Positions 41,361 to 52,845 of a stretch of DNA of 64,000 bases are shown here, in pieces. The notes under the pieces are model-generated. The model did no database searches, was not told the DNA's origin, and worked only from the letters and a program-made list of their open reading frames with translations. Numbering within the stretch: the stretch's first letter is position 1; each line of letters opens with the position of its first letter. Made by a program: the position numbers and the translations under genes. The stretch covers positions 238,858-302,857 of the forward strand of contig NZ_QQXL01000004.1 of assembly GCF_003640665.1 (NCBI RefSeq). The letters run 5' to 3'. Origin of the DNA: Galactobacter caseinivorans (GTDB taxonomy: Bacteria; Actinomycetota; Actinomycetes; Actinomycetales; Micrococcaceae).

Positions 41361-41546
41361 GGCCCCAGCGTGGCAGGTTCCGCCCCGGAGAGGTAGCCCC
41401 CGGGTATGAGTGCCACGTAGATTCTTCACTCCCTCGCCCGACGCGCCGAGGGGGGTCCGGGCGGCAAAGTAGTGAGAGTCGGCCGGGAAACGTCCCGCCG
41501 GCACACGGAGCCATTCCCGACTCGTGCAGACAAACCAGGAGCCCCC

Positions 41547-42179
41547 ATGCCCCCCATTGAAGGAACCACCAGCCAGGCGGACAAGCGGCGCCAGCGGATG
41601 GGGGCCATTGTGGTGCTGATCCTGGCCCTGGTCGCCACGATCTTTGTGGCTCAGCGGATCATGGCCACCCCCGCGGATGAGGCCACGGCGAGCGCCACCA
41701 AGGGAACCACGAACAGCGCGGGACTCGCGACGCCATCGGCGTTGAAGGACCCGAGCCAGCTGCGGGACACCAGGGTGGACCCCAGCAATAGCGAGCACCC
41801 CGCAGTGAAATACATGAACCCCGCACTGCTCAAGGCCATCAAGGAGGCCAAGGCTGCCGCCAAGGAGGACGGCGTCGACGACTTCTGGCTGACCTCCGGA
41901 TGGCGCACCGCCGACTACCAGCAGGAGCTACTGGACCAGGCCATCCGCAAGCGCGGCAGTGAAGCGGCCGCCAAGAAGTGGGTCAGGACCCCAGAGAACT
42001 CCGAGCACGTGCACGGCGCCGCCGCGGACGTGGGCCCCACCGCCGCCGCCTACTGGATGGACCGCAACGCCAGCGACTTTGGGCTCTGCCGGACCTACGC
42101 CAACGAGGTGTGGCACTACGAACTCAAGGACCCCAAGGCACAGAGCTGCCCGGCCATGAAAGAGAACGCCGCGGGCTAG
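41547..42179 (+). CDS. Membrane-anchored D-Ala-D-Ala carboxypeptidase (VanY/M15B)
   Basis: 210 residues: a basic head, one N-terminal helix (about 22-40) anchoring an extracellular M15B peptidase domain. Zinc and catalytic motifs: SGWRTADYQQELL, SEHVHGAAADV (SxHxxGxAxD) and EVWHYEL with the last His ligand. ATG 41547 has AGGAG upstream. Trims peptidoglycan stem peptides. Confidence 0.87.
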   Translation: MPPIEGTTSQADKRRQRMGAIVVLILALVATIFVAQRIMATPADEATASATKGTTNSAGLATPSALKDPSQLRDTRVDPSNSEHPAVKYMNPALLKAIKEAKAAAKEDGVDDFWLTSGWRTADYQQELLDQAIRKRGSEAAAKKWVRTPENSEHVHGAAADVGPTAAAYWMDRNASDFGLCRTYANEVWHYELKDPKAQSCPAMKENAAG

Positions 42180-42848: not shown

Positions 42849-44054
42849 ATGAAGATCACGCCCCCCGCCCCGGCACGCAGCGCCCTGCGCCAGCGCGCCC
42901 GCCTCGCGATGGCGGCCGGCGCCACGGCGCTCGCGTTGGCCCTGGCGGGCTGTCAGGCGCCCGGCACGGGCGCGGAGGGTGCGCCGGGGAACCCGGCCAC
43001 GGGTCAAGCGGGAGGATCGACGGCGGGTGAGGCAGCGGCGTCGGGCACTGCAGGCGGCACTGCCGGCGATCCCACCGGCGGCGCCCCGGACGTCACCGCG
43101 CCGCCCGCCCCGGGGTCCGCCGCGTCGGGCGCCGCCAAGCCGGCCACGCCACCCACAGCCAAACCCAAGCCCGCCAAGTCAGACAAGCCCAGGGCGGACA
43201 CCCGCCCCACCAGCGGCGGCGGCAGGTACGTGCGCATCAATGAGGACTACAGCACCAATCGGGCGGGCCTGGCGGACCGCTTCTTCACGGGCTCGGAGGG
43301 GGCCCAGCTCTTTCGTAGCATCGGCGGGGCGTTGATAGCAGGGGACCTTCCGGCCAACTCGGTGGCGTACCGGGACGTGGCCTACGAGAGGGCCGGAGGG
43401 CAGCGGCGCGGTTGGTATTTTGTGCGCACGCAGGGCATGACCGGTTGGATGAAGGAGGCGGCGCTGGTCCGAGAATCCACGGCCCCCACGTCCAACGCCG
43501 CCGGCCTCACGCGGGCGCAGGTGCGTGCCCAGCCCAACGGCCGCCTGCCGAGCGGCTCGCTCGTGGCCATTCCGTGGGATAGCGAGCGCACGCTCCTCGC
43601 GGCGCCCGCGCTGGCGGATCTGACCCGCCTGAACGCCGCGTTCCAGGCCAGGTTTGGGCGCCCGTTGCAGATTGACCTGGCGTATCGCACGCGCCAAACG
43701 CAGGACTATCTGTTCAAGGAGTTGGGCCCCAACCTGGCGGCGATCCCGGGCACGTCCAATCACGGTTGGGGGGACGCGATCGATGTCCCGGAGACCCCGG
43801 AGTATGCCTTTGGGGGCAAGTACTACCTGTGGCTCAAGGCCAACGCGGGTACGTACAACTGGATTCACCGCCGAAACCTGGAGGAGTTCACCGTTTCCGG
43901 GGCCAGGAACCCCAACGCGGAGGCGTGGCATTTTGAGTACCTGGGCGGCGAAGGCACCGCTTCCCCCCACCCCGCGCCGCTCAGATTGTTGAACAATCCG
44001 TCTCGATGGTGCATTCTGGTGAGGATTCATCACCGAGACGGAGGTCACACATGA
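42849..44054 (+). CDS. Lipoprotein D,D-carboxypeptidase (VanY family) with run-on C-terminus
   Basis: 401 residues. Lipobox LALAGC at about 31-36, a long Gly/Ala/Pro/Thr linker (to about 120), an SH3-like middle part with [14 protein letters not shown], then an M15B peptidase domain: [23 protein letters not shown] and EAWHFEYLG. After EYLG the family normally ends; here about 35 more residues, ending in [10 protein letters not shown], read straight through the pxp operator and promoter to a stop overlapping the pxpA start (ATGA). The tail is probably not functional protein sequence. Confidence 0.85.
43985..43997 (+). promoter_or_regulatory. Pxp operator copy 1
   Basis: ATTGTTGAACAAT, a perfect 6-bp-arm palindrome about one central G, 53 bases before the pxpA start. 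It is the exact reverse complement of the site at 49222-49234. The shape fits FadR-type GntR regulators (TTGT-N3-ACAA). Confidence 0.75.
44000..44039 (+). promoter_or_regulatory. Leader hairpin next to the pxpA ribosome-binding site
   Basis: Outer arms GTCTCG (44000-44005) and CGAGAC (44034-44039) enclose GGTGA/TCACC. The pxpA GGAGG (44040-44044) follows immediately. It could influence translation or mark the transcript start. Confidence 0.35.
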
Positions 44055-44809
44055 GCGTCATGGACCTGAACAGCGACGTAGGCGAATCCTTTGGCGCCTG
44101 GACCATGGGGGATGACGCGGCGATCCTGGATTCGGTGACGAGCGCCAACATCGCCTGCGGCTTCCACGCCGGGGACCCCTCCCACATGGCCGCCACCGCG
44201 CGCGCAGCCGCCGAACGGGGCGTGGCCGTGGGCGCGCACGTGGCCTACCGCGACCTGGCGGGCTTTGGCCGACGCTTTGTGGACGCCACCGCGACGGAGC
44301 TGGCGGATGACGTGCTGTATCAAATCGGCGCGCTGGACGCGATGGCGCGGGCCGCGGGCACGCGCGTCAGCTACGTCAAGCCCCATGGCGCCCTCTACAA
44401 CACGATTGTTCATCACGAGGTCCACGCCCGCGCGGTGGTGGATGGCGTGCGCGCCTTCAGCCCGGACCTGGCGCTGTTGTTGCTGCCCGGTTCGCTGGCG
44501 CTGGAGTTCGCGGAAGCCGCGGGCCTGCGCGGGGTCAGCGAGGCTTTTGCCGATCGCGGCTACAACCCCGACGGAACCCTGGTGTCACGGCGCGAGCCCG
44601 GGGCGGTGCTGCACGACGAAGCGACGGTCGCCGCGCGCATGGTGCGCCTGGCCACCGAGGGGGTGCTGGAGGCGGTGGACGGCAGCCTGATCCGCCCCCG
44701 CGCTCAGAGCATCTGCCTGCACGGCGACACCGAGGGTGCCGTGCGCCTGGCCGCCGCAGTCCGCGCGGGCCTTGAAGAGGCCGGCGTGGAGATCACGAGC
44801 TTCGCATGA
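44051..44809 (+). CDS. pxpA: 5-oxoprolinase subunit A (LamB/YcsF family)
   Basis: 252-residue subunit of the prokaryotic ATP-dependent 5-oxoprolinase PxpABC, which opens pyroglutamate to glutamate. Signatures: [46 protein letters not shown] and CLHGDT. GGAGG precedes ATG 44051. It is the first gene of a unit tightly joined by 4-base overlaps to pxpBC and the biotin carboxylase. Confidence 0.93.
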
Positions 44810-46560
44810 ATGCGCCCGCCCCGACCGTGCTCATGATGGGGCGCACGGCAGTTCTGGTGGACGTGTCCGCGTCCCCTGAGCCCCTGGAATCCGTGCTTTC
44901 TTGGCACGCCGAGCTGGTGGCCCGGCCCCTTCCCGGCCAGCTAGAGGCGCTGCCCGCCGCCGCCACCGTGCTGCTGCGCTTCTCCTCCGCGCCGGCCGCT
45001 GAAGCAGCGGTGGCAGAGGTCAAGAACCGAGTGCCCGACGCCGCTGCGGCACGTTCCAGCCGGATCGTCACCCTTCCGGTGGAGTACAGCGGCGAGGACC
45101 TGGAGCAGGTCGCCCGCCTGACGGGCCTCTCCGTGGAGGCCGTCATCGCCGCCCACACCGGAAGCGACTGGACGGCGGCCTTTGGCGGATTTGCCCCTGG
45201 CTTCCTCTACCTGACCGGCGGGGACCCGCGCCTAAACGTGCCGCGCCGCTCCACCCCACGCACCGCCGTGCCCGCGGGATCCGTGGCGCTGGCCGGCGCC
45301 TTCTCCGCCGTCTATCCCCAGCGCTCGCCGGGTGGCTGGCAGTTGCTTGGACGCACCGATGCGCCGCTCTGGGACGCGAGCCGCGAGCAGCCCTCGCTGA
45401 TCCGCCCCGGCGACGTGGTGCGCTTCGAGGCGGTGCGAGCCACGGCGAGGGCAGGCGCCGAGGTGCAGGTGGCATCCACGACCCTGCCAGAAGGGGCGCG
45501 GGACACCGTGACGCACCCCCCACGACCCGCCGCGCTGGAGGTGCTCAGCCCCGGCCTGCGCACCGTGTTCCAGGACCTGGGCCGCCCGGGGCTTGGCGAG
45601 CTGGGCGTCACCGCGTCCGGTGCAGCGGATAGGCCAAGCTCCGCCCAGGCCAACCGCCTGGTGGGCAACCCCGACTCCGCCGCGGTCTTGGAGACTCTTC
45701 TTGGCGGGCTGAGCCTGCGTGCCCAGGAGACCTGTGTGGTGGCGTTGACCGGCGCGGTGGGCGGGGCCATGATCGACGAGTCCGTCCCCGCGCCGGTAGG
45801 CGCTCCCTTTGCGCTGTACCCCGGGCACATCCTGACCTTGGGCCAGCCCGCCTCCGGCCTGCGAGGGTACGTGGCGATGCGCGGCGGGTTTGCCGCAGAA
45901 CGGGTGCTGGGCAGTGCATCGCTGGACACGCTCTCCGGGCTGGGCCCCGCGCCCCTGACCGGGGGCCAGGCGCTGTGCAGCGCAGGCCTTCCGGTGCTTC
46001 CCGTTGCCGAACCGCAGGAGCCGGCCACCGAGTTGCCCAACCCCGGGGAAGTGGTTCAGCTGCGCGTGAGTGCGGGCCCCCGCGCGGACTGGGTCGGCGA
46101 GGCTGGCCTGGACGCCCTGCAGCGCACGAGCTGGGTGGTGGGCCCGGACACCGATCGGGTCGGCGCGCGGCTGCGTGTGGACCCGGAACAGCCCCAGGAC
46201 CCGGAGCAGTCTCTTGACCCGGACGGCCAGGACACCCCTGCCAGCCAGGACGCCCCGGCCCATCCCGCCCCACCGATCGCGCGCCTCCGCGACGGCGAAC
46301 TGGCCTCGGAGGGCATGGTGCCCGGTGCCCTGCAGTTGCCACCTTCCGGCCTGCCGGTCCTCTTCCTTGCGGACCACCCGGTGACGGGCGGCTATCCCGT
46401 CATCGCGGTCGTGGAGCCCCACGACCTTCCCCTCGCCGCGCAATTGCCCCCGGGCACCCGGGTGCGCTTCCGCGTCGTCGAGCAAAAAACCGCACCGAAT
46501 CCCCCTCACCCCGCCAGCCAGCAGCACTCAGGCCAGCAGAACCCAGGAGCCACCCCGTGA
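44806..46560 (+). CDS. pxpBC: 5-oxoprolinase subunits B and C fused (KipI-KipA)
   Basis: 584 residues. Residues about 1-235 are PxpB (KipI/AHS1): [20 protein letters not shown] and PAGSVALAG. Residues about 239-560 are PxpC (KipA/AHS2): [36 protein letters not shown]. Separate genes in E. coli and Bacillus, here one polypeptide. A Pro/Asp/Gln-rich insertion of about 30 residues (around 463-493) and a Gln/Pro tail are extra. AHS1/AHS2 are also the carboxyltransferase domains of urea carboxylase, which matters given the next gene. ATGA overlap with pxpA. Confidence 0.92.
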
Positions 46561-48302
46561 AGAAGGTCCTCATCGCCAACCGCGGCGAGATCGCCGTGCG
46601 CGTCATCCGCGCGTGCACCGACGCCGGCCTCACCTCAGTGGCGGTCTACGCGGACCCGGACGCGGACGCCATGCAGGTGCGCCTGGCGGATGAGGCCTAC
46701 GCGCTGGGCGGCTCCAGCGCCGCGCAGAGCTACCTGGACATCGCCAAGATCATGGACGTGGCCCGCCGCAGCGGCGCGGACGCCGTGCACCCCGGGTACG
46801 GCTTCCTCTCGGAGAACGCGGACTTTGCCCAGGCCGTGTTGGACGCGGGCCTGGCGTGGGTTGGCCCCAGCCCGGAGGTCATTCGCACGCTGGGCAACAA
46901 GGTCTCTGCCCGCGAGCTGGCGCAGAAGGTGGGCGCGCCGCTGGCTCCGGGCAGCGACGGCCCGGTGTCCGGAGCGGAAGAGGTCACGGCCTTTGCCAAG
47001 GAGCACGGCCTGCCGATCATCATCAAGGCCGCGTTTGGCGGCGGCGGGCGTGGCATGAAGGTGGTGCGCGCGCTGGAGGACGTGGCCCAGGCGTATGACT
47101 CTGCCGTGCGGGAGGCGGTGGCCGCCTTTGGCCGCGGCGAGTGCTTTGTGGAGCGCTTCCTGGAGCGGCCGCGTCACGTGGAGGCGCAGGTGCTGGCGGA
47201 CACGCACGGCACCGTGATCGTGGCCGGAACCCGGGATTGCTCGCTCCAGCGCCGCCACCAGAAGCTGGTGGAAGAGGCACCCGCACCGTTCCTCAGCGAT
47301 GAGCAGCGCACCCGCATCCACGAGGCCGCCCGTGCCATCTGCGCAGAGGCCGGCTACACCGGTGCGGGCACGGTGGAGTTCATGGTGGCCGCGGATGGGC
47401 TCATCTCCTTCCTGGAGGTCAACACGCGCCTGCAGGTGGAGCACCCCGTCACCGAGGCCACCACGGGTCTTGACCTGGTGCGTGAGCAGTTCCGGATTGC
47501 GGACGGGCTGGCGCTGTCCATCTCCCAGGACCCGCAGCCGCACGGTCACGCCTTTGAGTTCCGCATCAATGCCGAGGACCCGGGGCTGGGCTTTTTGCCC
47601 ACGCCCGGCCCGGTGGAGGACTTCACCGCGCCGTCCGGTCCGGCCGTGCGCGTGGATACAGGAGTGGTGCGCGGGGACGTGGTTCCGGCGCAGTTTGACT
47701 CGCTGATGGCCAAGCTCATCGTCACCGGCGCGGATCGCGACCAGGCCCTGCGCCGGGCCCGCGTGGCGCTGGAGGAGTTCCGGATCGGCGGCCTGCCCAC
47801 GGTGCTGCCCTTCCACCGGGCCGTGCTTGCGGAGCCGGACTTCACGGACGCGCCCTTTCGCGTGGACACCACTTGGATTGAGCGTGTCTTTGGCGACCGG
47901 CTGGCGGCCGCCCCGCAGGCCGACGCGCTGCCCTCCGGCGAGCGTGCCGAGTTCACCATTGACGTGGACGGCAAGGCGGTGCGCCTTGGCCTGCCAGCGG
48001 CGCTGACGGCCATGCTGGGCGCCGGCGCGGCGGCGTCGGGCGCTGCCGGTTCAGGCGCTGTGGGCGGTTCCCCGGCCGTTTCTGCGCCCGACGCCGCGGT
48101 GCTGGCACCCGTGGACGGCACCTTGGCAGCGTGGCGAGTGAGCGAGGGGCAACGCGTAGAGGTGGGGGACCCGGTTGCCGCCGTGGAGGCCATGAAGATG
48201 GAGACCGAGGTGCGCGCCACGCGTGCCGGGACGGTGCGCATCGTGGGCCCGGAGGCTGGCGCAGCCGTTACACGCGGGCAGGAACTGGTGCGCATCGACT
48301 AA
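46557..48302 (+). CDS. Biotin carboxylase fused to biotin carboxyl carrier domain
   Basis: 581-residue acyl-CoA-carboxylase-alpha-like protein. ATP-grasp biotin carboxylase (1-445): [17 protein letters not shown], the glycine loop [28 protein letters not shown]-terminal carrier domain (510-581) with the biotinyl-Lys at 547 in EAMKMETE. No carboxyltransferase beta subunit is encoded nearby. GTG 46557 overlaps the pxpBC stop (GTGA), so it is translationally coupled to the 5-oxoprolinase genes. It could be an AccA-type subunit for acyl-CoA, but the coupling suggests PxpBC as its carboxyltransferase partner. Confidence 0.88.
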
Positions 48303-49296: not shown

Positions 49297-50346
49297 ATGT
49301 CGCGCCCAGAGTCGTCTCACCCCGCCCCAGTAGAGGCATTCGCCGCAGTGGCCCTGGACAACGTCACGACTGAGTTCCCCTACGCCACCCAGCACGTCAC
49401 CCGTGGCCCCGAGGACGTGGTGCTCCCCGTTGCGCTTCACCCTGCCTTTGGCACTTCCTTTGACTGGCACTCCAGCGTGCACATGCACTGGCTGCTGGTC
49501 TCCCTCCTAGAGACCGAGCCCGCGGCGGGGGAAGGCGCTGCCTGGCGCGAGCAGGCCATCAGCTTCCTGTCCCAGCACCTGAGTGCAGAGAACATCGCCG
49601 TGGAGTCCGCTTACTTGCTCTCCCATCCCACCTGGGAGCGCCCCTACGGTTGGGCCTGGGCGGCCCAACTGGTTGCGGGACTGCAGGCCTCGCGCCTGCC
49701 GCAACTGCGCGCCGTCGGGCAGGATGCCCAGCCTTTGCTTGACGCCGTCTTTGACCTGACGCTCGCGTGGCTGCCCAAGGTGCCGGAGCCCGTGCGCCAC
49801 GGCCTGCACACCAATACCGCCTTTGGCCTGCGTCGCATCCTGCTGGTGGCACGCGAACAGGGCCGCGCGGACGTGAGCTCCGCGATCGAGTCGGCGGTGC
49901 GTCGCTTCTTCCTGGCGGATGCCGCCTGGTGCTTTGAGCAGGAGCGCAGCGGCCAGGACTTCCTCTCCGCAGGCTTCTGCGAGGCGGATCTCATGGCCCA
50001 GGTGCTGACCCCGCAGGAGCTGGCCGCGTGGCTGCCCGCCTTCCTGTCCGCGCTGCGCCCGGATTCCAAGGTGCTCACCCCGGTTCCCGTGCTTGACCCC
50101 ACGGACGGCTACCAGAGTCACCTTGACGGGCTTGGCCTCACCGCCGCCGCGTCCATCCTGCGCTTGGCACCCCTCCTTGAGGCGGATACCGAACAATCCG
50201 AGCTGGCCGGCGCCCTGCGCGCCAGCGTGGACCGGCTCATGGCGCCGGGACTGGAGGCCGCCGTCTCTGATGAGTACATGGCCAGCCACTGGCTCGCCAC
50301 CTTTGCTTGGGAGGCGCTGCAGCAACGCGCCGCCCTGGCCGGCTGA
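49297..50346 (+). CDS. DUF2891 family protein
   Basis: 349 residues, soluble, all-alpha in appearance, no signal peptide. Conserved-looking polar clusters are SFDWHSSVHMHWLL, RHGLHTNTAFGL, GQDFLSAGFCEADLM, DGYQSHLDGLGL and MASHWLATFAWEAL: repeated His/Asp/Glu motifs at helix starts, as in alpha/alpha-barrel enzymes. Function not established as far as I know. GGAAGGA precedes ATG 49297. It opens the second pxp-operator unit and is followed by DUF969-DUF979, so a role in pyroglutamate or N-terminal-pyroglutamyl compound breakdown is likely (inference). Confidence 0.85.
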   Translation: MSRPESSHPAPVEAFAAVALDNVTTEFPYATQHVTRGPEDVVLPVALHPAFGTSFDWHSSVHMHWLLVSLLETEPAAGEGAAWREQAISFLSQHLSAENIAVESAYLLSHPTWERPYGWAWAAQLVAGLQASRLPQLRAVGQDAQPLLDAVFDLTLAWLPKVPEPVRHGLHTNTAFGLRRILLVAREQGRADVSSAIESAVRRFFLADAAWCFEQERSGQDFLSAGFCEADLMAQVLTPQELAAWLPAFLSALRPDSKVLTPVPVLDPTDGYQSHLDGLGLTAAASILRLAPLLEADTEQSELAGALRASVDRLMAPGLEAAVSDEYMASHWLATFAWEALQQRAALAG

Positions 50347-50431: not shown

Positions 50432-51142
50432 ATGTATGTCCTGATCGGCGTGGCACTGGTCGTCATCGGATTCGCCCTGCGCGTCAATCCGTTGCTGGTC
50501 GTCACGATCTCCGGCATCATCACCGCACTCATCGGCGGCATCACCCCCATCGACATCCTCAACATCTTTGGCACCGGCTTTGCCGGCAGCCGCTCGGTGA
50601 CGACCTTTGTCTTGGTGCTGCCCGTCATTGGTCTGATTGAGCGTTACGGCCTGCAGGCGCAGGCCGGCAACCTCATCCAGAAGCTGCAAAAGCTCACCAC
50701 CGGGCGCATTCTTGCCCTCTATTTGGTCATCCGACAGGTGCTTGCCGCCGTGGGCCTGACCAGCATCGCAGGCCCGGCTCAGACCGTGCGCCCGCTGGTT
50801 TACCCCATGGCGGAGGCGGCAGAGAAGCGCCGCATCGGCAAGGAGCCCAGCGAGAAGGCCAAGGAGAAGATCAAGGGATACACCTCCTCCGCGGACACCG
50901 TTGGCCTGTTCTTTGGCGAGGACGTGTTTGTGGCGGTGGGCTCCATCCTGCTCATCACCTCCTTCGTTGACACCACCTATGGCCTGTCGCTTGAACCCAT
51001 CCAGCTGGCCATCTGGGCCATCCCGGTGGGTATCGCCGCGCTGCTCATCCACGGGTCCCGCCTGCTCATGCTGGATCGCAAACTCGACAAATTGGCCGGC
51101 TTGGACCCCAATCTGCGCAGCCGTAAGGGGGCCCAGGCGTGA
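50432..51142 (+). CDS. DUF969 membrane protein (putative transporter half)
   Basis: 236 residues with about six helices and a charged loop (MAEAAEKRRIGKEPSEKAKE). Opens MYVLIGVALVVIGFALRVNP; TTGRILALYLVIRQVLAAVG is typical. DUF969 always pairs with DUF979 and, in several Firmicutes, lies beside pyroglutamyl peptidase; together they are thought to carry 5-oxoproline. ATG 50432 follows GGGAGGG. GTGA overlap with the next gene. Confidence 0.87.
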   Translation: MYVLIGVALVVIGFALRVNPLLVVTISGIITALIGGITPIDILNIFGTGFAGSRSVTTFVLVLPVIGLIERYGLQAQAGNLIQKLQKLTTGRILALYLVIRQVLAAVGLTSIAGPAQTVRPLVYPMAEAAEKRRIGKEPSEKAKEKIKGYTSSADTVGLFFGEDVFVAVGSILLITSFVDTTYGLSLEPIQLAIWAIPVGIAALLIHGSRLLMLDRKLDKLAGLDPNLRSRKGAQA

Positions 51143-52113
51143 TCAACTCCGAATGGATGTACTGGCTCATCGGAGCCTTCTTCCTGGTCGTGGCGGTCAT
51201 GATCGCCACCAATCAGGACCACCCCAAGCGCGCGGGTAGCTCCGCCTTCTGGGGCCTGCTTGGCCTCTGCTTCTTCTACAGCACCTGGGTGCAGGCCAAG
51301 GCCGCGCCCGCATGGATCCTTGGCTGCGCCGTCCTGGTGTTGGTCATTCTGGCCGGCTTCAAGTTCATGGGCGCCGGTCCGGAGAGCACCACCTCGCCCC
51401 AGGAGCGCGCCGCCTCCGCGGCCCGCCTGCGCAACAAGCTCTTCATCCCTGCGCTGGCCGTGCCCGTTGTGACCGTGATCGTGGCACTGGGTGCCCCGCT
51501 CATCAAGATCAACAACAAGCCGCTCTTGGCGGAGGGCACCGCCACGCTCACAGGCCTTGGCCTGGGCGCCATTGTGGCGCTGATCGTCGCGTTTGTGATC
51601 CTGCGCCCGGTCAAGCCGGCCGTGCCGTTCCGCGAGAGCACGCGCCTGCTAGAGGCCATCGGTTGGGCGGCGCTGCTGCCGCAGATGCTCTCCACGCTCG
51701 GCACGCTGTTCACACAGGCCGGCGTGGGCAAGGCCGTGGGCGATATCTTCGGCAGCATTGTGCCGCAGGATGTGCTGATCTGGGGCGTGGTTGCCTACTG
51801 CGTTGGCACCGCGCTGTTCACCATGATCATGGGCAACGCCTTCGCGGCCTTCCCGATCATGACCGCCGCGGTGGGCTGGCCCATCCTGGTGCAGAACTTT
51901 GACGGCAACGCCCCGGCCATCTTCGCCATGGGCATGCTGGCCGGCTTCTGCGGCACGCTCTGCACTCCGATGGCCGCCAACTTCAACATCGTCCCCGCGG
52001 CGCTGTTGGAGATGAAGAACAAGTACGGGCCCATCGTGGCCCAGGCGCCCACCGCCGGAATGCTGCTGATCGTCACGATCGCGTGCATGTACTTCTTCGC
52101 CTTCCCGCACTGA
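51139..52113 (+). CDS. DUF979 membrane protein (putative transporter half)
   Basis: 324 residues, about nine helices. Pore-like segments include NAFAAFPIMTAAVGWPILVQ and FCGTLCTPMAANFNIVPAAL, which resemble helical-hairpin carriers of the ion-transporter superfamily. GTG start overlaps the DUF969 stop. With DUF969 it is the likely uptake system feeding PxpABC; the substrate is inferred from neighbourhood. Confidence 0.87.
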   Translation: MINSEWMYWLIGAFFLVVAVMIATNQDHPKRAGSSAFWGLLGLCFFYSTWVQAKAAPAWILGCAVLVLVILAGFKFMGAGPESTTSPQERAASAARLRNKLFIPALAVPVVTVIVALGAPLIKINNKPLLAEGTATLTGLGLGAIVALIVAFVILRPVKPAVPFRESTRLLEAIGWAALLPQMLSTLGTLFTQAGVGKAVGDIFGSIVPQDVLIWGVVAYCVGTALFTMIMGNAFAAFPIMTAAVGWPILVQNFDGNAPAIFAMGMLAGFCGTLCTPMAANFNIVPAALLEMKNKYGPIVAQAPTAGMLLIVTIACMYFFAFPH

Positions 52114-52154
52114 TCCCTGCGGATGCGTTGAAGTGCGTTGAAGAAAGACGCCAC

Positions 52155-52188
52155 GATGGGCCCCAGGACGTCAGTTCTGGGGCCCATC
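52155..52188 (+). terminator. Hairpin between DUF979 and gntR
   Basis: 12 perfect pairs (52155-52166 with 52177-52188) extended by three more to a GTCA loop. No U-tract. It ends 9 bases before the gntR ATG, so it may end the DUF979 message or lie in the gntR leader. Just upstream TGCGTTGAAG is tandemly repeated (52124-52143). Confidence 0.6.
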
Positions 52189-52197
52189 TGGCACAGT

Positions 52198-52845
52198 ATG
52201 AGCGTGATTGCACCCCAAGCCCAGACCGCGTCTTGGGTGGCTGAGCGCCTCCGAGAGGACATCTCCCGCGGGCGGCTGCTCCCCGGCGTCAAACTGGCCG
52301 AGCAACAGCTCGCCACCCAACTCCAGGTCTCACGCAACACCCTGCGAGAGGCCTTCACCACCCTTGACGGCGAGGGCATGGTGGAGCGTTTCCCCAACCG
52401 CGGCGTGTTCGTCAAGCGCCCCACGGCGGCGGACATTCGCGAGATTTACCGGGTGCGGCGCATGGTGGAACCTGCCGCCGTGCTCTGGGGTGAGGTGCCC
52501 GACGACGCTCTGGACCGGATGGGTGCCATCGTCACCGAGGCGGCGCGCGCCAGGGCGGCGGGTCAGGTCCCGGCGATGGCCGCGGCGAACGAGGCGTTGC
52601 ACCGCGAGGTGGTGGGGCTGACGCAGTCCGCCACCTTGTTGGAGGCCATGGAGCGGGTCATGCTCCAGACCCGCCTGGTGTTTTTCACGATGGCTTCCGT
52701 GCCGGACTTTCACACCCACTACGTGGACGGAAACCTGAACCTGGTGCGCCGCCTGCGCGCGGGGGAGCGGGCGGAGGCGGCCCAGGAGCTGCGCGCCTAT
52801 CTGGAGACGGCGGAGGCTGAACTGCTGGGCCACCTGGGGGACTGA
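52198..52845 (+). CDS. GntR-family regulator (FadR/FCD type), candidate 5-oxoproline repressor
   Basis: 215 residues: N-terminal winged helix (about 10-75; LAEQQLATQLQVSRNTLREA then FTTLDGEGMVERFPNRGVFV) and a helical FCD effector domain with Asp/His positions (NEALHREVVG, HTHYVDGNLNLVRRL) that bind a metal-carboxylate ligand in relatives. An upstream in-frame extension passes through the hairpin; ATG 52198 gives the normal length. Last gene of the locus; it probably binds ATTGTTGAACAAT at 43985 and 49222. Confidence 0.88.
   Translation: MSVIAPQAQTASWVAERLREDISRGRLLPGVKLAEQQLATQLQVSRNTLREAFTTLDGEGMVERFPNRGVFVKRPTAADIREIYRVRRMVEPAAVLWGEVPDDALDRMGAIVTEAARARAAGQVPAMAAANEALHREVVGLTQSATLLEAMERVMLQTRLVFFTMASVPDFHTHYVDGNLNLVRRLRAGERAEAAQELRAYLETAEAELLGHLGD

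Follow-up and report, generated by a model that had tools for sequence, protein, structure and literature searches.

The 64,000-nucleotide stretch of Galactobacter caseinivorans DNA analysed here (contig NZ_QQXL01000004.1 of assembly GCF_003640665.1, positions 238,858 to 302,857; hereafter the window) carries an operon in which pxpA, encoding a subunit of the enzyme that opens 5-oxoproline (a cyclic compound formed from glutamate as a by-product), is followed by a fused pxpBC gene and by a gene joining a biotin carboxylase (BC) to a biotin carboxyl carrier domain (BC-BCCP), all on the forward strand. The genes overlap by four bases at each junction, namely ATGA at 44806 between pxpA and pxpBC and GTGA at 46557 between pxpBC and the BC-BCCP gene, and a GGAGG ends 6 bases ahead of the pxpA ATG. 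The initial annotation had described a fused PxpBC overlapping by four bases a BC-BCCP with Lys547 as the biotinylated residue, and the coordinates, the Pfam domains and the EAMKMETE motif bear this out. The genes and two key codons are as follows.

44051..44809, + strand: pxpA, 5-oxoprolinase subunit A (LamB/YcsF), 252 amino acids (aa); PF03746 329.8 bits, NF003814 360 bits
44806..46560, + strand: pxpBC, fused PxpB (CT_C_D) and PxpC (CT_A_B), 584 aa; PF02682 200.5 bits, PF02626 246.3 bits
45244..45246, + strand: codon of PxpB Arg147, at the position of the catalytic Lys1605 of urea amidolyase (alignments)
46557..48302, + strand: BC-BCCP (biotin carboxylase and biotin carboxyl carrier), 581 aa, GTG start; PF00289, PF02786, PF02785, PF00364 and trees
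48195..48197, + strand: codon of biotinyl Lys547 in the motif EAMKMETE (sequence reading)

At the domain level, the three 5-oxoprolinase parts match the PxpABC families. PxpA lies above the NF003814 cut-off of 226 bits, and the PF02682 (PxpB) and PF02626 (PxpC) domains, covering residues 7-198 (CT_C_D) and 266-556 (CT_A_B) of PxpBC, are well above theirs. The PxpB part reaches 132.1 bits against TIGR00370 (cut-off 145.55) and the PxpC part 154.9 bits against NF045499 (cut-off 500), so the curated equivalog models do not name the fused form. An AlphaFold2 model of PxpBC (predicted local distance difference test score, pLDDT, 85) was used in a fold search, and the best among the matches listed were MSMEG_0435, TTHA0988, Escherichia coli YbgJK and the urea amidolyase of Kluyveromyces lactis; the PxpC part shares the fold of the latter (5i8i) with Z 34.1 over 294 residues. 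The likeness of PxpB and PxpC to AHS1 and AHS2, proposed from the sequence, is thus upheld, as the fold of PxpBC matches that of the carboxyltransferase domains in urea carboxylase.

The BC-BCCP protein comprises the Pfam domains Biotin_carb_N, ATP-grasp, Biotin_carb_C and Biotin_lipoyl, and besides its biotinyl lysine (EAMKME, Lys547) it retains the conserved BC columns. Across the 49 BCs in the tree described below other than the 25 pxp-linked ones of actinobacteria, 67 columns are strictly invariant; the window protein agrees at 67 of 67, and the 25 all agree at 63. The pxp-linked BCs were collected for their adjoining pxpBC, relatives elsewhere were sought in 27 genomes, and the trees leave out one incomplete locus (L010). 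Among solved structures, the protein is nearest to AccA3, the alpha subunit of actinobacterial acyl-CoA carboxylases (E 1.1e-222), which likewise holds BC and BCCP in one chain of about 600 aa, and the AccA3-type protein of the same genome is 66% identical to it in the BC part. In a tree of 74 BC domains, however, all 27 AccA3-type rows form one clade (support 99) that excludes the 25 actinobacterial pxp-linked BCs, so the window BC is not among the AccA3 orthologues; 12 plasmid-borne pxp-linked BCs also fall outside this clade in an enlarged tree. Proteins more than 60% identical are solely of the AccA3 type in the 11 searched genomes that lack a pxp-linked BC. Seven urea carboxylase BCs form a clade of their own (support 100) apart from the pxp-linked BCs, and MCC-like BCs and the BCs of split pxp loci are also separate. 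While free quick trees drew the 37 pxp-linked BCs in several pieces, a single clade of all 37 was not rejected and had a higher likelihood than the free tree (approximately unbiased test, p-AU 0.74). On these trees, then, the window carboxylase is an old paralogue of AccA3 that has stayed with pxpBC.

The genome itself (2.95 Mb, 99.8% complete) encodes four BCs and two acyl-CoA carboxyltransferases (PF01039). Both carboxyltransferase genes lie on contig C13 and the window on C14, which agrees with the earlier remark that the window lacks such a gene. On C13, one BC is 9 kb from the first carboxyltransferase and another directly adjoins the second, whereby the search for a beta subunit elsewhere in the genome led to two genes that each already have another BC near. 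The third BC belongs to an open frame as long as a pyruvate carboxylase (1183 aa), and the fourth is the window BC-BCCP, for which neither a nearby nor an unpaired beta subunit was seen. With this layout, PxpBC, whose PF02626 domain is the only one encoded in the genome, is the sole carboxyltransferase near the window BC. A wider count points the same way: 16 genomes with a pxp-linked BC (BC+) hold 31 carboxyltransferases against 24 in 11 genomes without one (BC-), six of the BC+ genomes have just one, and no spare carboxyltransferase for the pxp-linked BC was seen.

PxpBC and its carboxylase have also diverged together. Over 16 genomes, PxpBC distances correlate with those of the pxp-linked BCs at r 0.88 and with those of AccA3 at r 0.64, and the partial correlation of PxpBC with the BC beyond AccA3 distances is 0.81 (permutation p 0.0002), with four of the 16 AccA3 stand-ins (L206-L209) being divergent; with 37 loci compared, r reaches 0.78 (p 0.0005). 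These correlations support joint inheritance of PxpBC and BC, and contact between the proteins is not proved by them alone. In the PxpBC tree, the 37 fused BC+ proteins lie within one set of 51 fused proteins (support 100) that also includes 14 fused BC- proteins, most simply read as the carboxylase having been lost repeatedly. The window module has its closest relative in locus L130, which comes from another family of the order (78% identity for BC, 83% for PxpA), which suggests that the pxp module has moved between families by transfer.

The arrangement recurs in several bacterial classes. A PF02626 gene was found in 143 of 198 sampled genomes of the order and in 27 of 119 of a phylum sample. 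Of the 143, 76 genomes supplied 80 neighbourhoods, hand-picked among the matches listed, with one or more per genus and with full-length urea carboxylases (open frames over about 1100 aa) left out by choice. Including the window, these 81 loci fall into 23 with BC-BCCP right behind pxpBC, five of class II, in which PxpB and PxpC are split and the BC lies between pxpA and pxpB or behind pxpC, and 53 without BC, meaning none in the fetched stretch of about 7 kb per side (less at contig ends). PxpB and PxpC share one frame at all 23 BC+ loci compared with 17 of 53 BC- loci. A similarity search of named genomes gave 21 loci, and the BC-BCCP arrangement is present at three of them (Kocuria marina L008, Cryobacterium L009 and L010). 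In plasmid records, BC-BCCP stands right behind pxpBC at all 12 fused loci fetched, 11 of them proteobacterial (two from Paracoccus, two from Rhizobium, and one each from Shinella, Aureimonas, Ketogulonicigenium, Thioclava, a Comamonadaceae, Pantoea and Enterobacter) and one from Arthrobacter. Four of these (L218-L221) came from a best-hit list, one being chosen since a biotin carboxylase was already named there, and eight from an evenly spaced list with 16 one-piece rows (H51-H66), of which a ninth row was the record of L220 and seven Klebsiella rows were left out. Since the gene order recurs at 22 of the 80 other fetched loci of the order and at all 12 fused plasmid loci, it is not due to chance. 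BCs of other lineages accompany split PxpB and PxpC elsewhere, in class II loci and in Bradyrhizobium and Rhizobium. Seven split plasmid pairs, hand-picked, include three with separate BC genes (L232, L234, L236) and four with none. Two loci show a carrier-like gene: at L233, one of these four, a biotin/lipoyl gene lies near the record end with no biotin carboxylase up to that end, and at L243 (genome G364) a biotin/lipoyl carrier-like gene is near PxpB and PxpC, with no biotin carboxylase found genome-wide.

Several known systems resemble the operon in part. PxpABC of E. coli, Bacillus subtilis and Corynebacterium glutamicum shares homologues of PxpA, PxpB and PxpC in one operon, but the E. 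coli record examined (L231) and the accessible part of the C. glutamicum report (PMC13274462) have two genes, pxpB and pxpC, and name no biotin gene next to them, whereas in the window the two are fused and followed by BC-BCCP. Urea carboxylase or amidolyase (K. lactis, PDB 3va7 and 5i8i) contains the same modules, BC, BCCP, AHS1 (PxpB) and AHS2 (PxpC), yet in one polypeptide ordered BC-AHS2-AHS1-BCCP and with a catalytic lysine. Against TIGR02712, the model of the full-length enzyme (cut-off 1303.85), pxpBC scores 128.5 bits and BC-BCCP 522. A split urea carboxylase was considered and rejected, as the lineage of the BC, which sits in a separate clade, the order AHS1-AHS2 and the Lys-to-Arg position (Arg147) all differ. 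Hence the initial annotation was right that all parts of a urea-carboxylase-like enzyme are present, while descent from urea carboxylase does not hold.

A structural parallel is PDB 9yx5, released on 2025-11-26, whose title describes a Mycobacterium smegmatis long chain acyl-CoA carboxylase complex with MSMEG_0435-MSMEG_0436 bound, these being homologues of PxpC and PxpB. Its chains V and W are among the solved chains nearest to PxpBC, and AccA3 is in the same entry, although there it is the AccA3 of an acyl-CoA carboxylase and the PxpB and PxpC homologues are split. A literature search found no paper on 9yx5, and the entry is known from its title, chain names and alignments. Chain W, the PxpB homologue, reads PRRAEPRT at the catalytic position and so is of the Arg kind, which suggests that an Arg-kind PxpBC can sit on an AccA3 complex. 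Finally, a six-gene operon of Staphylococcus aureus contains pxpB, pxpC, pxpA, accB and accC (PMC11315280). PxpABC is therefore already known, as is an operon joining 5-oxoprolinase genes to those of a biotin carboxylase; in that report, as far as its accessible text goes, accB and accC are separate and treated as fatty acid synthesis genes, with no joint enzyme proposed. A search for a biotin-dependent PxpABC, or for fused PxpBC and BC-BCCP as one enzyme, found no description, with most subscription papers outside its reach.

The sequences show the gene order, the intact BC columns with the biotin motif, the position of the carboxylase outside the AccA3 clade and its inheritance together with PxpBC. 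A dedicated functional partnership between PxpBC and BC-BCCP is quite probable, and the module is a variant of a known enzyme. A carboxyltransferase fold with a BC of its own, repeated with BCs of different lineages, makes activation by carboxybiotin the most natural reading. With ATP and bicarbonate, the BC domain would charge the biotin of Lys547 with a carboxyl group, and the carrier domain would then visit the carboxyltransferase-fold active site of PxpBC. There the carboxyl group would activate 5-oxoproline, most simply as an N-carboxy-lactam, whose ring PxpA would open to give N-carboxyglutamate and, after loss of CO2, glutamate, by analogy with the path from urea through allophanate to ammonia. 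We infer the physical complex in this organism, the flow of carboxyl groups and the N-carboxy intermediate, as well as 5-oxoproline being the substrate. For the carboxybiotin chemistry taken by itself the balance is about even, and the complete picture, in which an operon for opening 5-oxoproline relies on fused PxpBC in complex with its own BC-BCCP for carboxybiotin activation, falls just short of that.

Several observations weigh against this reading. In K. lactis urea amidolyase, the carboxyltransferase reaction most likely has Lys1605 as its general base (PMC5770610); this residue was assigned by counting to the Lys of a TKYNPART motif. The position holds Lys in all 28 urea carboxylases spanning BC to AHS1 (34 loci tried by similarity, 32 matched, four of these short of that span), and it is Arg in all 94 aligned PxpBs of the kind found in the window, 25 of 25 BC+ and 69 of 69 BC-. 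The residue is therefore independent of the presence of a BC. Class II-labelled PxpBs have Lys in 9 of 12 and Arg in 3 of 12, and Arg also occurs at 18 of the 19 plasmid loci, with Lys at the remaining one, L236, giving a clear split between the Lys group of urea carboxylases and nine class II rows and all others. A change in the carboxyltransferase site that tracks the carboxylase was not found, since the columns conserved in BC+ proteins are, by eye, largely kept in the nearest BC- PxpBC. It could be that the Arg147-type residue instead holds the carboxylate of 5-oxoproline. At the level of genomes, the BC is absent from the fetched stretch at 53 of the 81 loci of the order, and starred branches of the trees force at least six BC gains or losses in the first tree and five in the larger one, during which PxpBC persisted. 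Two of 19 genomes with PxpBC from several phyla have no PF02785 match. In the class of one of these, PF02626 is above its cut-off in nine of 118 genomes (one further match lies below). When the second BC-free genome is added to these nine, PF00289 finds no match in seven of the ten, among them the two already mentioned; since a completeness floor of 90 applied to the 118-genome class sample only, a gene may have been missed in individual genomes. All seven BC-free genomes encode PxpA, PxpB and PxpC within the stretch and have Arg at the Lys1605 position. In addition, Niehaus reportedly showed in 2017 that B. subtilis PxpA, PxpB and PxpC mixed in vitro gave ATP-dependent activity. C. glutamicum requires pxpTABC for growth on 5-oxoproline, and the accessible part of the report names no biotin gene in the operon (PMC13274462). 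Both the Arg and the genomes devoid of a BC argue that the core reaction can proceed without biotin, and PxpABC in general apparently has no need for it. The carboxylase thus has the look of a partner dedicated to PxpBC but not universally required. The biotin-dependent route first proposed is borne out in part: the dedicated partner is supported (by the non-AccA3 lineage, the co-divergence, the lack of a spare carboxyltransferase and 9yx5), while lactam carboxylation stays hypothetical, with the Arg, the seven BC-free genomes and C. glutamicum running counter to it.

The same points favour an alternative in which PxpABC is an ordinary ATP-dependent 5-oxoprolinase, with phosphorylation by PxpBC and opening by PxpA, and BC-BCCP is an accessory that, for instance, regulates or boosts the enzyme or serves it as an arm for activating bicarbonate: Arg replaces the urea carboxylase Lys in all 94 PxpBs of this kind, PxpABC occurs where no BC is detected (the seven genomes and the 53 loci), and C. 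glutamicum grows on 5-oxoproline. Yet the long co-inheritance of PxpBC with a BC-BCCP of intact conserved columns suggests that biotin carboxylation is used, the pxp genes are linked to BCs of different lineages, and no ATP-binding Pfam family was matched by pxpBC at E 0.001, leaving this alternative unlikely, if still the strongest of those considered.

The genes downstream bear on the substrate. The operon extends beyond the limit given in the initial annotation, and on the same strand follow:

+ strand, between the BC-BCCP and DUF2891 genes: DUF805 gene (Pfam)
49297..50346, + strand: DUF2891 protein, operon neighbour of unknown function; PF11199 302.5 bits
50453..51142, + strand: DUF969 protein, candidate half of a 5-oxoproline transporter; PF06149 259.8 bits, role inferred from gene context
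51139..52113, + strand: DUF979 protein, candidate other transporter half; PF06166 377.2 bits, overlapping DUF969 by 4 bases
52138..52845, + strand: GntR/FCD regulator, exact start uncertain; PF00392, PF07729

DUF969 and DUF979 would import 5-oxoproline in the pathway outlined above, and DUF2891 accompanies DUF969/DUF979 also in the pxp operons of loci L089 and L141. Genes of the NRAMP family, D-glutamate cyclase-like genes (which we take to be the function of the putative hydro-lyase genes in the records) or DUF969/DUF979 genes lie near 19 of 23 BC+ and 3 of 53 BC- loci (Fisher p 3e-11, kinship ignored), with the NRAMP and cyclase queries taken from BC+ operons, which may favour BC+ loci. With kinship considered through six independent pairs, an average of 4.5 go the same way and none the opposite (median p 0.06; 0.125 for fused loci only), so that the link is no longer significant, which adds to the counterpoints above. 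According to PMC13274462, the NRAMP family is that of PxpT and YcsG, needed for 5-oxoproline use, and a GntR regulator likewise lies near the C. glutamicum genes. A Comamonadaceae operon (L220) is ordered DUF969-DUF979-pcp-pxpA-pxpBC-BC. These neighbours point to 5-oxoproline as the substrate, and because of the uptake and cyclase genes the BC+ form appears to be a catabolic version tied to uptake. Neither the pyroglutamyl peptidase family PF01470 (pcp) nor the eukaryotic-type 5-oxoprolinase PF02538 was found by profile search in the genome of the window, so no second type of 5-oxoprolinase was seen there.

It is improbable, next, that the biotin-dependent carboxylase works as proposed but on another lactam, an amide or a ureido compound. 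The PxpB and PxpC scores below the 5-oxoprolinase subunit cut-offs of NCBIfam and the lack of PF01470 in the genome would fit such a substrate, whereas PxpA exceeds its NCBIfam cut-off, the sister operon L220 includes DUF969, DUF979 and pcp, and NRAMP-family or D-glutamate cyclase-like genes are near most BC+ loci. That BC-BCCP is instead a stray alpha subunit, paired with an acyl-CoA carboxylase beta subunit from another locus and present in a pxp operon by happenstance, as the initial annotation had allowed for, is very improbable despite its kinship with AccA3 and the sharing of mycobacterial AccA3 by several carboxylase complexes (PMC11001197), as 37 of 37 pxp-linked BCs fall outside the AccA3 clade and co-diverge with PxpBC, BC+ genomes have no extra carboxyltransferase, and the same gene stands in the pxp operon of Proteobacteria.

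If carboxybiotin activation by PxpBC and its own BC-BCCP is correct, carboxybiotin would act on nitrogen in lactam activation as well as in urea carboxylation. A broader version, somewhat doubtful at present, is that this would be a second 5-oxoproline chemistry, encoded by a module spread through Actinobacteria and Proteobacteria, with BC- actinobacterial PxpBC borrowing the housekeeping AccA3. Annotations would also be corrected, as the corresponding genes of the plasmid records are now named acetyl-CoA carboxylase, biotin carboxylase or ATP-grasp proteins, and accB and accC of the S. aureus pxp operon, counted as fatty acid genes in the accessible part of PMC11315280, would have to be reassessed. 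The coupling of ATP to lactam opening by PxpB and PxpC is given as an assumption in PMC13274462, and the form with its own biotin carboxylase makes this question directly testable.

A second, distant kind of pxp locus also emerged, with split PxpB and PxpC and a separate BC (L090, L097, L104, L156, L166, L031, L034, L036, L042 and L236), and its PxpB keeps the urea carboxylase Lys (VPKY..PRT...GGYQ). By this motif, such loci make better candidates than the system of the window for genuine carboxylases of amides or lactams. Two different pxp systems occur in single genomes, namely G153 (L090 and L091), G266 (L097 and L098), G288 (L156 and L157) and G236 (L166 and L167), and likewise on the plasmids of Rhizobium leguminosarum CC283b (L228, L234). 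Because single genomes carry both, the two kinds probably differ in substrate. Finally, two VanY-type D-Ala-D-Ala carboxypeptidase genes lie upstream of pxpA in the window (41472-42179 and 42849-44054), and at the Shinella locus L219 a gene of the D-Ala-D-Ala carboxypeptidase family is likewise close to the pxp operon.

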